From Telopea speciosissima (lineage: Eukaryota > Streptophyta > Magnoliopsida > Proteales > Proteaceae): a stretch of DNA of 64,000 nucleotides. A program made the position numbers and the translations under genes. A model generated the notes under the pieces. The model was not told the origin of the DNA, did not search any database, and saw nothing but the letters and a program-made list of their open reading frames with translations. Where the stretch lies: assembly GCF_018873765.1 (NCBI RefSeq), contig NC_057926.1, positions 46,987,043 to 47,051,042 of the forward strand. Direction: 5' to 3'. Positions 3,056-63,073 of the stretch are shown piece by piece. How positions within the stretch are numbered: position 1 is the stretch's first letter; every line of letters begins with the position of its first letter.

Positions 3056-3589
3056 AATTATTTTGCTTCATGAAACAAAAAAAACAAATGATCAATTATC
3101 TTTAATTTTATATTTAAAGTGTGAAAATATTTTAAAATCTTCATCCATTATCTCTTAATTCAAGGAAAACTTAGGCACGAAGAAGTTTGTGTAATTTATC
3201 CAAAAATAATTAAACTGTTGTGTTCCATCCTTTCGCTGTCTGGCTCAGGCGCCACACAGCTTGGTAGCCTTATTTTCCCAATAATTATTTAGGGTAAAAT
3301 TATTATTTTTGTGTAGAACAACAACACATAAAAATACCTAGCCTACCTTGATCCCGCCATTGGCGGGCCTAGGCTGAACCTTGTGGACCCCACCTAAGCC
3401 TGAGTTTTCAAAAACCTGAACCAACCCAATCCAATTGCACCCATAATTTGTACCTAGAAATAAATGGAGCCAAAATTAATTTGTATATTTTTTCTATAAA
3501 ATATAATTGAAGAATTTCAATTACCGCTTTCTATGTTGTGTTCCCACCTATTTCTCAAATCACCTTGCAAAAACTTTTCCATCAACTGC

Positions 3590-3805
3590 CTTTGGCCGAC
3601 TAATTCCCCTAGGAAGCGTGCACGACCTTGCAACACACACGAACCAGGAGATACTAGGTCCCCATGTTCACCAAGGAGTTTCCTCTCAGGTGGGTGGCCC
3701 CAAGGGGGGAGGCAGAGTCGAACTCAAGACCTTCCACTTCCTTAGGCCTTGTTCCTTGCCACTACGCTGCCCCTTGGGGAAACTTTCTGCAACTAGGAAA
3801 CAAGG
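3590..3805 (-). mobile_element. tRNA-derived SINE
   Basis: On the minus strand the head reads ggggcagcgtagtggcaagg (A-box-like) followed about 35 bases later by ggtcttgagttcgactc (B-box-like), then a ccttggggcca block also found in the SINE at 18161. It sits next to the LINE fragment that begins about 3825. Exact ends are uncertain. Confidence 0.55.
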
Positions 3806-3824
3806 TATTGTGGAGCGATCGAGT

Positions 3825-5110
3825 ATTCCGATTTGTAAATTTCCAACCCGATATCTAGGGGTGGAGATTTTCAAAAGGAAGGATAAAAAAGAGCCCATTA
3901 TTGTGCGATGACGGATCATATTAATGGTAGAATGGCTGGATGGAAGGGGAAGCTACTTTCTATGGGGGGTTGGGTGGAGCTTGTTAAATCAGTGATCTCT
4001 AGCATTTTGGTCCACAATCTCTATATATTGGTATTCGTCAAGCCTGATAGTCATGTTAGAGAGATGGATGAAAAATTTTATAAGGTTGGAGGTGTTGAAT
4101 CGTCTAGGCCAATATGGTAAAGTGAGATACTATGTGCATACCTAAATCTAAAGTAGTCTCAGTATTAGGAGGTTGCGTGACATTAATAAAACTCTCCTAC
4201 ATAAGTTAGCCTACCAGATCAAACATGGAGAGTCAACTATGTGCAATTTCTTCAAAGCAAGATTCCTAAACTAGAAATAGTTCTTTCAGAAGATCCTATA
4301 ACTCTTCTTTTATTTGGCTTTGTATTTGAAGGGTTTGGCATTTTTTTACCAGCCAAGAGAGATAGATGATTGGCAAGGGGAATAAAATCAATTTCTAGCG
4401 CAATAGATGGTTGAATAATTGTTCTTAATTGGTCTTTCCCAGTTGTCCCATCAGGTTCCTTAAACCAATTTTTTCCAAAGCTTACTCTATCGGAATTCTA
4501 GGGATTTTATCTCTAAAAGGGGCGTGGAAAGCTGGGTTTGTTGTGATCCTTGTGATCCTCGATCTATAATCTTTGGTTGGAAAGGAACTTCAGCAGATTT
4601 TTTCTATGTGCATTCAAGGAGTATCTAGGTGTGAAAAAAAAAATTTTGAGGCAGAAGTTTCTGCATTAATTAGAGAATTGCAGTACACCAAGGATCTGGG
4701 ATTCTCTGCCATCTCCCTTGGTTTTTAGGATCCAGATTCTCTACGGTGCACTGCCCGTAGCGGCCTGAGCCATGCGCGCAAAGATCGCCTTACCCCTGTC
4801 CAAACGCTTTGGCCGAACGGAGGTAAGGCGGTCATTGCACGCACGGCCCAGTCTGCGCCGCACAGACCGCTATGGACAGCTGCACCGTAGACGATCTGAA
4901 TTGTGGTTTTTATGGCAAGATTGGCTCGCTCTACAACCTTATTTGACTGCTATTAGGCTGAACATTTCCCATTGTCTCAGGAAATCTAATCCTATTGCGG
5001 ATTTTTTTATCAAATGAAGCTGCAAAATCTAGAATATCAGATTTAGTATATGATTTTCCTTTCCATATAAAAGATGAGATCGGAAGAGATACTCTAGGAA
5101 TGCCCAAATA
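3825..5110 (+). pseudogene. L1-type LINE fragment (RT C-terminus to RNase H), copy A
   Basis: Decayed non-LTR retrotransposon. At 3830-4085 the frames read FPTRYLGVEIF, then GWKGKLLSMGGWVELVKSV, the thumb-proximal end of a plant LINE reverse transcriptase. At 4490-4620 a zinc-knuckle/linker piece (NLWLERNF-like) remains. At 4960-5110 the RNase H tail is seen (SNPIADFF, then KDEI-R-DTLGMPKY). Frameshifts and stops interrupt every part, and MITE H2 is inserted at 4728-4903. The 4490-5110 part is duplicated at 10430-12110, upstream of aldo-keto reductase copy B, so this piece travelled with the segmental duplication. Confidence 0.7.
4728..4903. mobile_element. hairpin MITE H2 with 9-bp target duplication
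   Basis: Flanked by a perfect 9-bp direct repeat TGGTTTTTA (4719-4727 and 4904-4912). The termini are inverted copies of about 23 bases sharing tctacggtgca. The arms meet around gatcgcctta and taaggcggtcattgcacgc. The corresponding place in the copy-B duplicate (about 11030-11050) has no such element, which confirms insertion after duplication. Confidence 0.85.
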
Positions 5111-5233: not shown

Positions 5234-5404
5234 CCAAAAGGATCCTCTGCAGCACCCTGTCCGGGCTGCACGTGCAGCGCCGGACATAGCGAGGTGTGAA
5301 AAGACCGCATCACCCCCGGTCGGGCAGGGGTAAGGCGGTCTCTTCACGCCTCGCTGTGTCTGGCGCTGCACATGCAGCCCGGGCAGGGTGCTGCACAGGA
5401 GCCA
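5234..5404. mobile_element. hairpin MITE H3 with paralogous empty site
   Basis: A palindrome of about 170 bp. The left arm ctgcagcaccctgtccgggc is matched inverted by gcccgggcagggtgctgcac, and the centre has the ggtaaggcggtc motif. It is bounded by AAGAT repeats (5229-5233 and 5405-5409) inside slightly diverged longer flanks. The copy-B duplicate at 12536-12545 reads caagatgggctctc with a single AAGAT, giving the pre-insertion site. Confidence 0.85.
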
Positions 5405-5439: not shown

Positions 5440-5556
5440 CTTTACCTCTGCCCAAGCGCCTTGCCCGAGTGGGGGTAAGGCGGTCATTGCACACCGCCTT
5501 GTATCTGTACATGCAGCGCAGGCCGTTGGGGCAGTTACGCCGTAAAAGATCTGGAT
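5440..5556. mobile_element. degenerate hairpin MITE H4
   Basis: Contains gggggtaaggcggtcattgc and ends agatctggatccg, like the right end of H2. The left arm is short (tgcccaagcgcctt matching aggccgttggggca in reverse complement), so it looks like a deletion derivative. It is absent from the copy-B duplicate, which has a different hairpin (H8) nearby. Confidence 0.55.
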
Positions 5557-5843
5557 CCGAATACCAAACTACTACTAAAGGTAGACCAATTCAACCCCTA
5601 CATGTGGTAGAAAATACTTTACTATTTTGGAAGCTCTCCAATCGTCATTAGTGATGAAAATCCTCTTCTCTAATTCAATCTACATGACCCATGAAGCTTT
5701 AACCTGAGAACCAATACATACAAGAAGCAAGACACATGGAGGAGGAAGATGAGGAGAGCAGCGTGAAGATGAGCTAATCTTCTGTCCACAATATATATAG
5801 ATGATAAGATCTTCCAAAACTATTCAATCTCAGACACTAAGAC

Positions 5844-7160
5844 ATGGAGAAAGTAGCAGAAGTTATCCCAGAGGTAGTCTTGAGCTCTGGACATAAAATG
5901 CCATTAATAGGTTTGGGGACAGCAGCCTTCCCTGTTCCTCCAAATCTCACTTCTCATATTGTTGAAGCCATTAAGCTCGGTTACCGACATATCGATACTG
6001 CTTCTATATATGGTACCGAAGAATTCGTCGGCCAAGCCATAGCCCAAGCACTCGAGCAAGACCTAATAAAAAGCTGTACCGATGTTTTCATTACTTCAAA
6101 GTTGTGGTGTATAGATGCAGACCATGATCTTGTCCTTCCAGCACTCAAGGAAACACTCAAGTTAGTTTCTTTAATTATCTATCTTCTAAACATATTTTCA
6201 CTATATAATCTGTGATATTTTAAATAGAATTTGTTTTATTTTGTTATAGGAAACTTGGTTTAGATTATGTGGATCTCTATCTGGTGCACTGGCCTGTAAG
6301 GTTGAAACAAGGAGCAGGTTTCCCTCCTCAGAAGGAAGACATTCTTCAATTTGATATGAAAGGGACTTGGGAAGCCATGGAAGAGTGTTGCAGGCTTGGC
6401 TTAGCAAAGTCTATTGGTGTTAGCAACTTCTCCTGCAAGAAGCTCTCCCAACTTCTAACTTTTGCCACCATCCCTCCGGCGGTGAATCAGGTATACATAC
6501 CATCATCACATACCTGTAAGTCTCCACATAGGGCTACTTACATTCGATGTGGGATTATTACTTCTTTCTTCCACGTGGAACCCTAACAGATATGAGAGAT
6601 GGTTTTAATCTTAAAATAGCAACTGTGATGATATGTGGTGACTAAATGAAATTTGAAATATGAACTTTTTAGGTTGAAATGAATCCTACATGGCAGCAGA
6701 AGAAGCTGAGGGAATTATGCAATGAGAAAGGAATCCATGTCAGTGCCTAGTCTCCTCTGGCATCATATGGAAGTGCATGGGGTTCATCTGTGGTGATGGA
6801 AAATCCAATCCTCAAAGAATTTTCCCTGTCTAAGGGAAAAAACGTGGCACAGGTATTAATTAAAAGGAATGAGGTTTCAGTAGTTCTTGAAATTCTTTTT
6901 TTTTGTTTAATTAAACATTATTACTGTTTTGACAAATTTCATTGAGATGGACATATCAGCAAGGAGCAAGTCCAATTGTGAAGAGCTTCAACAAGGATAG
7001 GATGAAAGGGAACCTCCAAATCTTTGATTGGGAATTTACCCAGGAAGAACTGGATAAGATAAGCCAAATTCCACAAAAAAAGGGATATTCAGCAGAAATG
7101 TATGTTTCGGCAAATGGGCCTTACAAGTCTTTGGAGGAACTTTGGGATGGGGAGATCTAA
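5844..7160 (+). pseudogene. aldo-keto reductase copy A, broken
   Basis: Four-exon AKR4-type gene related to codeinone reductase/chalcone reductase-like NADPH oxidoreductases. Exons by splice signals: 5844-6160, 6250-6490, 6673-6852, 6936-7160; the sum is 963 nt. The catalytic tetrad is visible: D51, Y56, K86, H119, plus the NADPH-phosphate motif VKSFNKDRM. Three lesions are visible. (1) Codon 212, TGG in copy B, is TAG (6748-6750) in the VSA-W-SPLA motif. (2) The exon 4 acceptor is AA instead of AG (6934-6935). (3) About 35 bp between the TATA-like run (5792-5800) and the ATG, present in copy B, is missing. It is otherwise very close to copy B in exons and introns, so inactivation is recent. 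A short exon 1-3 product could still be transcribed, but a working enzyme is not expected. Confidence 0.85.
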
Positions 7161-13100: not shown

Positions 13101-13180
13101 GATGATTTAACACAAACGTTTGTTCAAACAAGAGAGTGCTTCCATCTTCCAAAACAATCAATCTCAAACACTCACCAGTC

Positions 13181-14473
13181 ATGGAGAAAGCAGCAGAAGT
13201 TATCCCAGAGGTAGTCTTGAACTCTGGACATAAAATGCCATTAATAGGTTTGGGGACAGCAGGTTTCCCTGTCCCTCCAAATCTCATTTCTCATATTGTT
13301 GAAGCCATTGAAGTCGGTTATCGACATATCGATACTGCTTCTATCTACGGGACCGAAGAGTCTGTCGGCCAAGCCATAGCCCAAGCACTCGAGAAAGGCC
13401 TAATAAAAAGCCGTAGCGATGTTTTCGTTACTTCAAAGTTATGGTGTATAGATGCAGACCATGATCTTGTCCTTCCAGCACTCAAGGAAACACTCAAGTT
13501 AGTTTCTTTAATTATTAATCTTCTAAACATATTTTCACTATACAATCTATGATATTTTAAATAGAATTTGATTTATTTTGTTATAGGAAACTTGGGTTAG
13601 ATTATGTGGATCTCTATTTGGTGCACTGGCCTGTAAAGTTGAAACAAGGAGCAGGCTTCCCTCCTCAAAAGGAGGACATTCTTCAATTTGATATGAAAGG
13701 GACTTGGGAAGCCATGGAAGAGTGTTGCAGGCTTGGGTTAGCAAAGTCTATTGGTGTTAGCAACTTCTCCTGCAAGAAACTCTCCCAACTTCTTACTTTT
13801 GCCACCATCCCTCCCGCCGTGAATCAGGTATATATAAGGAGAGGGTGCCGAAGGACCTATGTGGAATTATTACTTCTGCCTTTTGCGTGGAACCCCAACA
13901 GATATGAGAGATGGTTTTGAGCTCAAAATAGTATCTGTAATGATTTGGTGACTAATTGAAATTTGAAATTTGAAATTTGGGACTTTAGGTGGAAATGAAT
14001 CCTACATGGCAGCAGAGGAAGCTGAAGGAGTTCTGTAATGAGAAAGGGATCCATGTCAGTGCTTGGTCTCCTCTTGCCGCATATGGAACTTACTGGGGTT
14101 CAACTTCAATAATGGAGAATCCAATTCTCAAAGATATTGCCATGGCTAAGGGGAAAACTATTGCACAGGTATTAAACCATACTAACATGTTGAAGCTCTG
14201 CAATGAAATTTGTGCTTTTATAATTAAACATCAGTACTGTTTTGACAGATCTCACTGGGATGGATATATCAGCAAGGATCAAGTCCAATTGTGAAGAGCA
14301 TCAACAAGGATAGGATGAAAGGAAACCTCCAAATATTTGATTGGGAATTTACCCAGGAAGAAATGGATAAGATAAGCCAGATTCCACAGAAAAAGGGATC
14401 TCCAGGAGAAATTTTTGTCTCACCAAATGGACCTTACAAGTCTTTGGAGGAACTTTGGGATGGGGAGATCTAA
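13181..14473 (+). CDS. aldo-keto reductase copy B (AKR4, codeinone-reductase-like)
   Basis: NADPH-dependent cytosolic aldo-keto reductase of the plant AKR4 group that includes codeinone, chalcone-linked and methylecgonone reductases. Exons 13181-13497, 13587-13827, 13989-14168 and 14249-14473 join in frame to 320 residues with GT..AG borders throughout. The (beta/alpha)8 signature [15 protein letters not shown] supplies D51 and Y56; TSKLW supplies K86; LVHWP supplies H119. The aromatic VSAWSPLA motif (W212) and the NADPH 2'-phosphate motif VKSINKDRM are present. One oddity is G250 (GGA, 14258-14260) in the ISL-G-W motif, where copies A and C, and AKRs generally, have Arg. The substrate cannot be predicted; alkaloid, flavonoid or general carbonyl reduction are all possible. 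It is the only full-length open copy of the A/B pair. Confidence 0.88.
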
Positions 14474-60388: not shown

Positions 60389-61320
60389 CAAGAGAAGATG
60401 AATCCGATAATAGATTAGAGCTTTTATCAAAACAAAAAAGAAAAAAAAAGAAAAAGATAATAGATTAGAGCCCTAGAATTTTATATATGACCAATTTAGA
60501 AATCCCTTCTTACATACATCCGACGGTTGAGATTGACCAGATCCTCAGCTATCCTTACAGTCAAAATGAAGCTTGATACAAGGTGACAACAGGGTGAGTG
60601 ACAGAGAACTGAGAGAAAATCCTAACGTGTAATGGACAATAGTGACCATAGTGAAGGGACTATGATTATAAATAACGACCAGATCATCAGCTGTCCTTCG
60701 ATGTACAACTATTGGTGATGTTCCTGTTTGATGGACTTGTTAGATTAGTGATCGATTTTGATGGACTAAGTTTCCATTTACCTTCCCTCACCATGGGCAT
60801 CTGTGTCATTGAATGCCCAATGGGAGAGATAGTTTCGACACCAAACAATAATACGGGCCAGAAGTTTGTGATAGGACAAGAGTCCAATCACAAACTTCAT
60901 CAGTGACGAGGATAATCTTCCTTCTTCACTTTTGAAAGAAAAATTTCACGTAGTTTGATACTTTGTTTTGGTTCATGTGATAGAGGATCCTACACCTCCC
61001 TTATGAGTCAAGTTTCAATTAGAAATATGTTGAAAAATGCCTTAAAACAGTAAGTAACATTGCATTCCATTGCAGTGAAATGATATTTTTGTAATTTTAT
61101 ATAACTTTTAAACTAATTGTTCAATTAGGTTCTGTACGGCAACATTTTTGTTTGGGTAAATTATATTACGACCCCTTGAGGTTTGTCTTAAATACAAAGC
61201 AATCCCCTGTGTTTTTAAATTATACAACTGTGCCCCCTGAGTGGACGGTATTAAATAATATAATGTAAAATACCAACTTTACCCTCTTCTAATATGATTA
61301 AATAATACAAGGTAAAATGC

Positions 61321-62112
61321 TCACCAATCCTTCACAACCAGTCCTCTGTTCTTAACTCTCTTCAGAAAATCTTGGCCAACCAAGTCTTCAATCTCCACAT
61401 TGTCCTTTTGATCCACTTTCTTCCCTTTCAATACCCACAAGAACCTGCAACCACTCTTCTCCAATCCATCACCCAACTCTCTAATTTGATCTTTAGATAA
61501 AGTCGTTCTGCTCCCGAAGCTTACATACACCACTGACCCTGCAGGTTAGGTGTCCAGCCATGAAAGCCAAGGTCCTTGCCCATAATGGTTCCAATGGACC
61601 GATTACAAGCACTTGTGGGAGCCTAGATTGTTAGAATTCTATTTAAAATGGAATTAATAAACCTATTGTGGAGTAATATTAAAGTCTCCTAAATTCAAGC
61701 AATTGTGGGAGCCCAGATAAGACTTTTCCGTTGTTGAGTGCCTCAAGGATCTCTGGCTCCTATGCTTGAAAGGTTTTTGTTAGAATCCCTTTGGCCTTAA
61801 TGAGCCCTCGACCATTTGAAACCAAAAGTCTTCTACAAATATGGGTTAAGTCAAAGAGAGGCGGAGGACGCCAACATTTTGATAAGGTAGACAAACCAGA
61901 GATTTTGGAAATGGGATCCAGATCATTAGATACTTCTTTGTGACCGTGCGTAATGAACGTTTTATCCTCGTTCGGGCAAGACACTCTAGCATGGATAAGG
62001 CGATCAATACGTGCCACCTTGTGTCCGCGTAGCACGGTAGGATAGGAGCCCGTGCCGTAGAAGATCTGAATCCGGTGAAGAGTGCAAGCATTTTAGCAGA
62101 GGAGGTGTGAGG
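61321..62112 (-). pseudogene. UDP-glycosyltransferase fragment (UGT708-like)
   Basis: The minus strand, right to left, gives pieces in the correct order of a plant family-1 UGT: TSSAKMLALFT (about 62070-62105); ISGLSTLSKCWRPPPLFDLTHI and GRGLIKAKGIL (about 61765-61925); EILEALNNGKVLSGLP (about 61705-61752); VIGPLEP (about 61590); WLSWLDT-stop-PAGS; and [23 protein letters not shown] to GLVVKDW (61324-61533). The WRPPPL and VSFGSR/GDGL wording resembles UGT708 C-glycosyltransferases. Damage includes MITE H15, a ~90-bp insert bounded by ttgtgggagcc repeats (61613-61623 and 61703-61713), a frameshift before GPWLSWLD, and TAA for Gln before PAGS. The N-terminal acceptor region and the PSPG box are absent. 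Confidence 0.82.
61938..62080. mobile_element. hairpin MITE H15 inside the UGT fragment
   Basis: Splits the UGT reading between LALFT and ISGLS. It contains tagcatggataaggcgatca, the central motif, and ends ccgtagaagatctgaatccgg like H2 and H4. The left arm (accgtgcgtaatgaacg) is diverged. It shows the hairpin family was active after the UGT sequence became noncoding. Confidence 0.65.
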
Positions 62113-62637
62113 GCTGTTCTTCATGTTACCACAGTACCACCGCTTTCCATCCCCGACAGATTGAAACTTTCTGCACCAAGAAGTACTTGACTTGTGTTGG
62201 GCATTGATTGGAGAGACAATAGGTGCTGGAATAAATAAAATAGAATAGGGCTGCGATTCCTTGAAGACAGATTTCTATCCTCAATCAATATTAATTTCAT
62301 CAGCAACTTGAATCAGCTGAGGAGGAAAACCCAAAGGTTAGTATCTCTGCAATTATTCTCTTCATTCGAACTCTTAACCCCCCTTTCTGATTCGAGTAAC
62401 TGGGGAAATGGGTGAAGTTAGGGATGCCCTATGGGCAAAATGGTAAACTCATATCTTGAAAAAGATATATTAATCATTTGAAGGCAAACTTAACCAATAT
62501 CGTAACACGTAACTAACAGAGTGGGGTTGATTATAACAACTAATCTAAACTTAGGGGGTGCGACTGTATAATTTAGAAGCACATAGAGTTGCTCTGTATT
62601 TAGGACAAATCATAGGGGGTCACAATGTAATTTACCC

Positions 62638-63073
62638 TTTTTGTTTTAAATAACTATTTCTGAGTCAGAAAAAAAATTTTGTTTCGGGTTTTTTAGAGTA
62701 CTTTTGTATCAATCGATGTTCTATGCTAAATTTTAAGAAAAAAATTGTATGGAATGCATCTTTACAAAAGTTTATCTTTTGGTGGCAATGGTGGTGATGA
62801 TGGCGGCGGTGATTTTGGTTGAAGTTGCATTATAGGTGATAGTGATGCTGTTTCTGTCCTAGCTTTTTGTTTTTGTTATTATTTTTTTTTAGCTTCCTTT
62901 AATTGTTTCTCTCGAAATTGTTCCAAATGTGTTTTCTTACCTGATTCGTTTCAAAACCAAGAACAAAAAAAAATACACGGACGACACATAAAAGTTTTGT
63001 TCAATTTTTGTTAACAAAAAAATACAAAAACACCGGAAACAGTTCTTTGAACTTTGCCATACAGACCCTTTGT
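62638..63073. other. sequence between the Pack-MULE and the rest of R3
   Basis: No counterpart in R1 or R2. Its right end (ttgccatacagacc) is an inverted match to gttctgtacggcaa at 61129-61142, so 61129-63070 may be one nonautonomous element into which the Pack-MULE inserted. No coding content. Confidence 0.4.

Follow-up and report, generated by a model that had tools for sequence, protein, structure and literature searches.

A Mutator-like element (MULE) of 1484 bp spans positions 61154-62637 of the window, the whole 64-kb stretch of Telopea speciosissima DNA analysed here (C11:46987043-47051042), and was compared with the entire genome (823 Mb, 1287 contigs). We consider it very probable that this is a non-autonomous member of a MULE family with the end sequence GGG(A/T)AAATTACA..., that it carries a UGT708-type glycosyltransferase fragment from a donor gene on C3, and that it is now a relic. 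Related ends elsewhere in the genome, target site duplications (TSDs), a donor locus, cargo limits and secondary inserts in the cargo are all directly observed. The element coordinates of a preliminary description were exact, and its identification of a Pack-MULE with UGT708-like cargo is upheld by sister elements with 9-bp TSDs, a donor gene that outruns the cargo, and strong donor matches only between the terminal inverted repeats (TIRs). The features, with strand where one was assigned, are the following.

61145..61153, left copy of the TSD, TTTTTGTTT, matching the right copy
61154..61242 (+), left TIR, 89 bp, 76% identical to the right TIR and matched by sister ends
61243..61320 (+), left subterminal region, matched in sisters, with two 22-bp repeats 47 bp apart
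61324..61605 (-), cargo, UGT708-like fragment, 93% identity to the donor on C3
61606..61628, first copy of a 23-bp direct repeat that is single copy in the donor
61629..61695 (+), 67-bp terminal fragment of a long terminal repeat (LTR) of about 533 bp, from LTR matches
61696..61718, second copy of the 23-bp direct repeat, which is at the same time the start of the following cargo piece
61696..61942 (-), cargo, central UGT part, 91% identity to the donor
61943..62073, truncated MITE, with 18 bp of donor sequence missing at the site
62074..62107 (-), cargo, UGT fragment, 33/34 positions identical to the donor
62107..62108, point at which, in the donor alignment, about 400 bp of donor sequence are lost by internal deletion
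62108..62237 (-), cargo, donor sequence around the start codon with some 93 bp of 5' flank, 86% identity over 122 aligned positions with 24 gap columns
62238..62336, stretch of about 100 bp, for which neither a source nor another copy was found in the genome
62337..62548 (+), right subterminal region, matched in many sisters from 62375 and at C3:21860757 from 62337
62549..62637 (-), right TIR, pairing with the left TIR
62638..62646, right copy of the TSD, TTTTTGTTT, matching the left copy

The perfect 9-bp target duplication reported previously was recovered, with TTTTTGTTT identical at 9/9 positions on both sides of the element. The flank is T-rich and a 9/9 match also occurred at 1 of 380 downstream control positions, so that the TSD by itself is not decisive and is convincing only jointly with the paired ends and the sister elements. 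Inverted ends had been described as TIRs of about 95 bp; the ends themselves are real, while their length is better given as 89 bp ungapped (68/89 positions paired, 76%) or about 110 bp gapped. Their local alignment score was 47, against a maximum of 15.5 among 1000 shuffles of one end.

Related TIR pairs elsewhere in the genome, proposed earlier as a check, are present. A genome search with the whole element (40 of 1354 candidates scored) gave 86 matches, of which many fall on the right terminus (approximately element positions 1222-1484, 76-84% identity). Twenty regions were fetched, comprising the donor and 19 family places, of which the 12 delimited at both ends (858 to 2033 bp) form the sister set; seven with an incompletely delimited second end were excluded from the sister counts (L011, L015, L018, L020, L024, L027 and L028), although L011, L018, L027 and L028 do show a second end, partly or wholly. 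TSDs of the sisters match at 9/9 positions in six and at 8/9 in three, the remaining three being poor as delimited (L010 7/9, L025 6/9 and L016 3/9), and that of L025 becomes 9/9 on a one-base shift of one end. The 42-bp majority end was found at 178 places in the genome with up to 3 mismatches (99 forward, 79 reverse), compared with 0 forward and 0 reverse for a reversed-pattern control. Both ends of the present element differ from the majority end at 6/42 positions each and are absent from the 178, which makes it an outlying family member. Its TIR identity is also the lowest among the 13 elements compared, with the sister TIRs at 80-94% across the equivalent 89 bp once gap columns are excluded.

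The parental UGT was located at C3:13234090-13235211 on the minus strand, where the cargo aligns in four pieces with 625/685 identical positions (91.2%, K2P 0.093). The next UGT loci found with the donor protein as query were 61%, 58% and 58% identical (126 of 393 candidates scored). The donor gene lies at approximately 3225-4715 on the minus strand of the fetched region L009 (C3:13230500-13238500), its frame extends past the cargo limit, and no family end was found in this 8-kb locus. On the donor, the cargo reaches from about 93 bp 5' of the start codon to approximately codon 343, representing about 1.1 kb. The captured piece had been described as roughly the middle of a UGT. It does contain the central part, and in addition the 5' flank and the start, together with the internal deletion, the approximately 400 bp lost being the donor's N-terminal coding part. 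The best solved-structure matches of the cargo were SbCGTa, UGT13, LpCGTb, UGT708C1, UGT708A6 and GgCGT, with SbCGTa the best (E 1.9e-27) and LpCGTb and UGT708C1 matched by the central part. Judged by this similarity, the cargo is of the UGT708 type and closest to the solved C-glycosyltransferases of that group, the label being taken from the match entries UGT708A6 and UGT708C1 as a similarity-based assignment. Protein searches gave nothing meaningful for the frame at 61846-62274 (a single match at E 1.5) and 0 matches for the far 5' frame.

The limits of the cargo bear on the alternative that a local UGT pseudogene was already present and was later enclosed by MULE ends or nested transposons, without any capture. 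A cargo that is broken and holds other insertions would fit such a history. Yet the two ends are correctly oriented and have a single 9-bp TSD in common, the cargo starts 4 bp past a left terminus that is matched in a sister (element positions 1-167), and the sisters show the same plan with other interiors. When positions 60901-62900 were compared with the donor locus, every match with E <=1e-10 fell inside 61324-62237; those outside it were simple-repeat-like (E 0.001-0.004, at 62780-62889) or weaker. Strong donor matches are thus confined between the TIRs, where the preliminary description had asked whether UGT sequence ran past them, and it is the donor gene that outruns the cargo. We therefore give enclosure of a resident pseudogene hardly any credence and retain capture by the MULE as the explanation.

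A second alternative is that the fragment was an mRNA-derived retrocopy, picked up afterwards, and not genomic DNA. The comparison of intron content suggested previously is uninformative here, since no intron lies in the captured stretch of the donor, which leaves a retrocopy compatible with the cargo on that point. The cargo also includes about 93 bp 5' of the start codon, against a retrocopy, although this could be a transcribed leader, and no second UGT copy that might have served as an intermediate was found among the scored candidates. An mRNA origin is accordingly judged improbable. Under the favoured reading, the C3 segment would have been captured as DNA, with gap repair around a transposition as the probable mechanism, in an element mobilised by MURA transposase supplied in trans.

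Such a transposase was sought within and around the family. In Pfam, four read-through frames of the element, three of which were partial, yielded no transposase and a single weak, sub-threshold match to UDPGT. In a genome search for the MULE domain PF10551 (150 of 828 candidates scored), no scored place lay within 10 kb of 100 listed end sites (of the 178) on inspection by eye. Two wide pairs of family ends, also inspected by eye for a transposase, contained retroelement-like frames instead; one of them (L069) lacks a TSD at its pattern-matched ends. Among the places scored and inspected, no autonomous partner could be linked to the family ends.

The cargo has been altered by a deletion and two foreign inserts. 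An insert of about 90 bp with its own ttgtgggagcc duplication had been proposed; the duplication exists, ttgtgggagcc forming part of a 23-bp direct repeat whose copies are identical at 21/23 positions, while in place of a separate element there is a 67-bp LTR end beside that repeat. The 67-bp fragment starts at, or at most 3 bp from, an LTR terminus (40 places scored, the window's own included), and its matches include, by eye, five same-strand pairs 5.8-9.7 kb apart. L067 and L068 each have a pair of direct repeats (535 and 531 bp, respectively) with the fragment at that end, and on this ground an independent small transposon of 90 bp was ruled out. Both 23-bp copies carry common changes that are absent from the donor, for which reason the duplication probably arose in the cargo. 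LTR integration usually duplicates 4-6 bp of target sequence. Since 23 bp exceeds this, the most likely origin of the fragment and the duplication is repair of a staggered break with an LTR end as filler DNA.

The MITE said to split the cargo is likewise real, but truncated, replacing 18 bp of donor sequence. Among 40 scored places of its family, the window copy included, the others are 76-85% identical, and the family left end is missing at 61943-62073. The sequence GGATCCAGATC at 61914 was considered as that left end and ruled out, as it is donor gene sequence and the family left end differs. Four layers of insertion had been thought datable relative to each other. This is not supported: the deletion, MITE and LTR fragment are neighbours within the cargo and not nested in one another, so that nesting gives neither their mutual order nor their place before or after the last transposition; each is either later than the capture or part of it. 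During or after capture, about 400 bp of cargo would have been lost, and the LTR-end fragment with the 23-bp duplication and the truncated MITE gained.

Differences between cargo and donor are spread over the three codon phases as 15/14/14 (187-188 sites each), the pattern expected without coding constraint, and the captured copy would have drifted with no visible constraint of this kind. If 7e-9 substitutions per site per year are assumed, the cargo-donor divergence would correspond to approximately 7 million years, as an order of magnitude only. The donor has a single in-frame stop in the assembly, beyond which the frame runs on for about 150 codons; this stop may be an assembly error. The cargo has a sense codon at the same position, which suggests that the capture predates the stop.

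The element could also be imagined still to act on the donor UGT, for instance through putative small RNAs or a chimeric transcript. In favour stands the 91% identity of cargo and donor across 685 aligned positions, and PMC3310237 states that Pack-MULE cargo has the potential to regulate parental genes. The cargo is, however, split and frame-broken and has no second copy among those found, and the donor itself carries the in-frame stop; present action on the donor appears decidedly unlikely. We return to the reading of a decayed capture, in which the element is most likely an inert relic today.

The sisters share their ends and vary in their interiors. Most or all of the 13 elements have in common the outermost 100-250 bp at the left end and approximately 250-350 bp at the right, and 8 of the 12 sisters contain a continuous stretch, 650 to 1380 bp long, unmatched on either strand in the other 12 elements; the corresponding stretch of the present element, unmatched in the 12 sisters on both strands, is 1016 bp. 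Parts of one interior are common to L010, L014, L022 and L023, and this interior was therefore amplified. A Pfam scan of ten segments, picked by eye from 8 of the 12 sisters, gave matches above the curated cut-off in three of the eight (L016, LRRNT_2 and LRR_1; L017, DIOX_N; L026, LRR_1), a Rad51 match below it in L025, and no match in the segments from L012, L013, L019 and L021. Searched against the genome, the L017 interior matched a donor-like, dioxygenase-like gene at C8:62927706 (82%), near which no family end occurs within the 3.7 kb of L060, and also longer copies on C7 (89-90%) that adjoin family ends. The L025 interior has many further genome copies. An interior without counterpart in the sampled sisters is consequently not necessarily unique in the genome, given that those of L017 and L025 recur. 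With 178 recognisable ends and varied interiors, the family would make capture rates measurable in the Telopea speciosissima genome. Separately, a family element at C2:10889500-10897800 (L070) is flanked on both sides by TATAATATA, and its contents are presumably a tetraspanin-like segment and a copia-like retroelement.

A broader proposal, which we put forward tentatively and regard as possible but rather doubtful, is that the GGG(A/T)AAATTACA family is unusually capture-prone, with host DNA in most members, and that the UGT cargo is a fossil older than the donor's in-frame stop. If this were true, capture and donor decay could be ordered in time.

Elsewhere in the window, MITE-like inverted repeats with 21-bp arms (86% paired) lie at 4730/4901 (window 4730-4901). 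A MITE-like foldback of 77 bp (87%) occupies 5240-5403, and positions 5539-5559 look like an element end; all these sequences resemble the MITE in the cargo. A GC-rich foldback at 1212-1308 (43-bp arms, 88%, 11-bp loop) is situated directly downstream, at lower window coordinates, of a 285-codon frame at 1354-2211. Two reading frames about 7 kb apart, at 5841-6586 and 13106-13552, are closely similar by eye, and we take them to be aldo-keto-reductase-like.

PMC3310237 describes Pack-MULEs as non-autonomous MULEs with TIRs, a 9-11-bp TSD and host gene fragments, and count 2853 in rice, 276 in maize, 220 in tomato and 46 in Arabidopsis, those of tomato being most often 1000-1200 bp long. The present element resembles them in having inverted ends, a TSD within the 9-11-bp range and a host gene fragment, and differs in that its cargo is of the UGT708 type and contains a deletion and two inserts of foreign DNA. 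MULE TIRs are typically 100-500 bp long according to the same paper; by that measure the ends here are short and diverged (89 bp at 76%, about 110 bp with gaps) and lie at the lower limit. Nested insertions occur in over one third of candidate coding-MULEs of maize and rice according to PMC3903597, MITE and LTR-retroelement sequences being nested as here, whereas that survey concerns transposase-coding MULEs and the LTR piece here is a 67-bp terminal fragment only. Pack-TYPE elements of the CACTA, hAT, PIF and Mariner groups also hold captured coding DNA between TIRs according to PMC8903248, with TSDs of 5 nt for CACTA, 8 nt for hAT, TTA/TAA for many PIF and TA for Mariner; the 9-bp TSD here fits a MULE, unlike these. 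In comparison with known UGT708-type C-glycosyltransferases, the donor on C3, a putative C-glycosyltransferase, is similar by sequence but carries an in-frame stop in the assembly. A literature search for UGT-carrying Pack-MULEs, covering a minority of subscription journals, gave one paper that contains both terms and whose title concerns sucrose metabolism genes, and the main text of the lotus genome paper contains no Pack-MULE passages. Since its Pack-MULE features and nested insertions match those in the literature cited above, the element is of a known kind. It is a genuine, decayed Pack-MULE that opens no new question of principle, a well-documented case and not a new phenomenon, in which a capture is fully sourced, with element, donor, sisters and secondary inserts, and the donor is of the UGT708 type.
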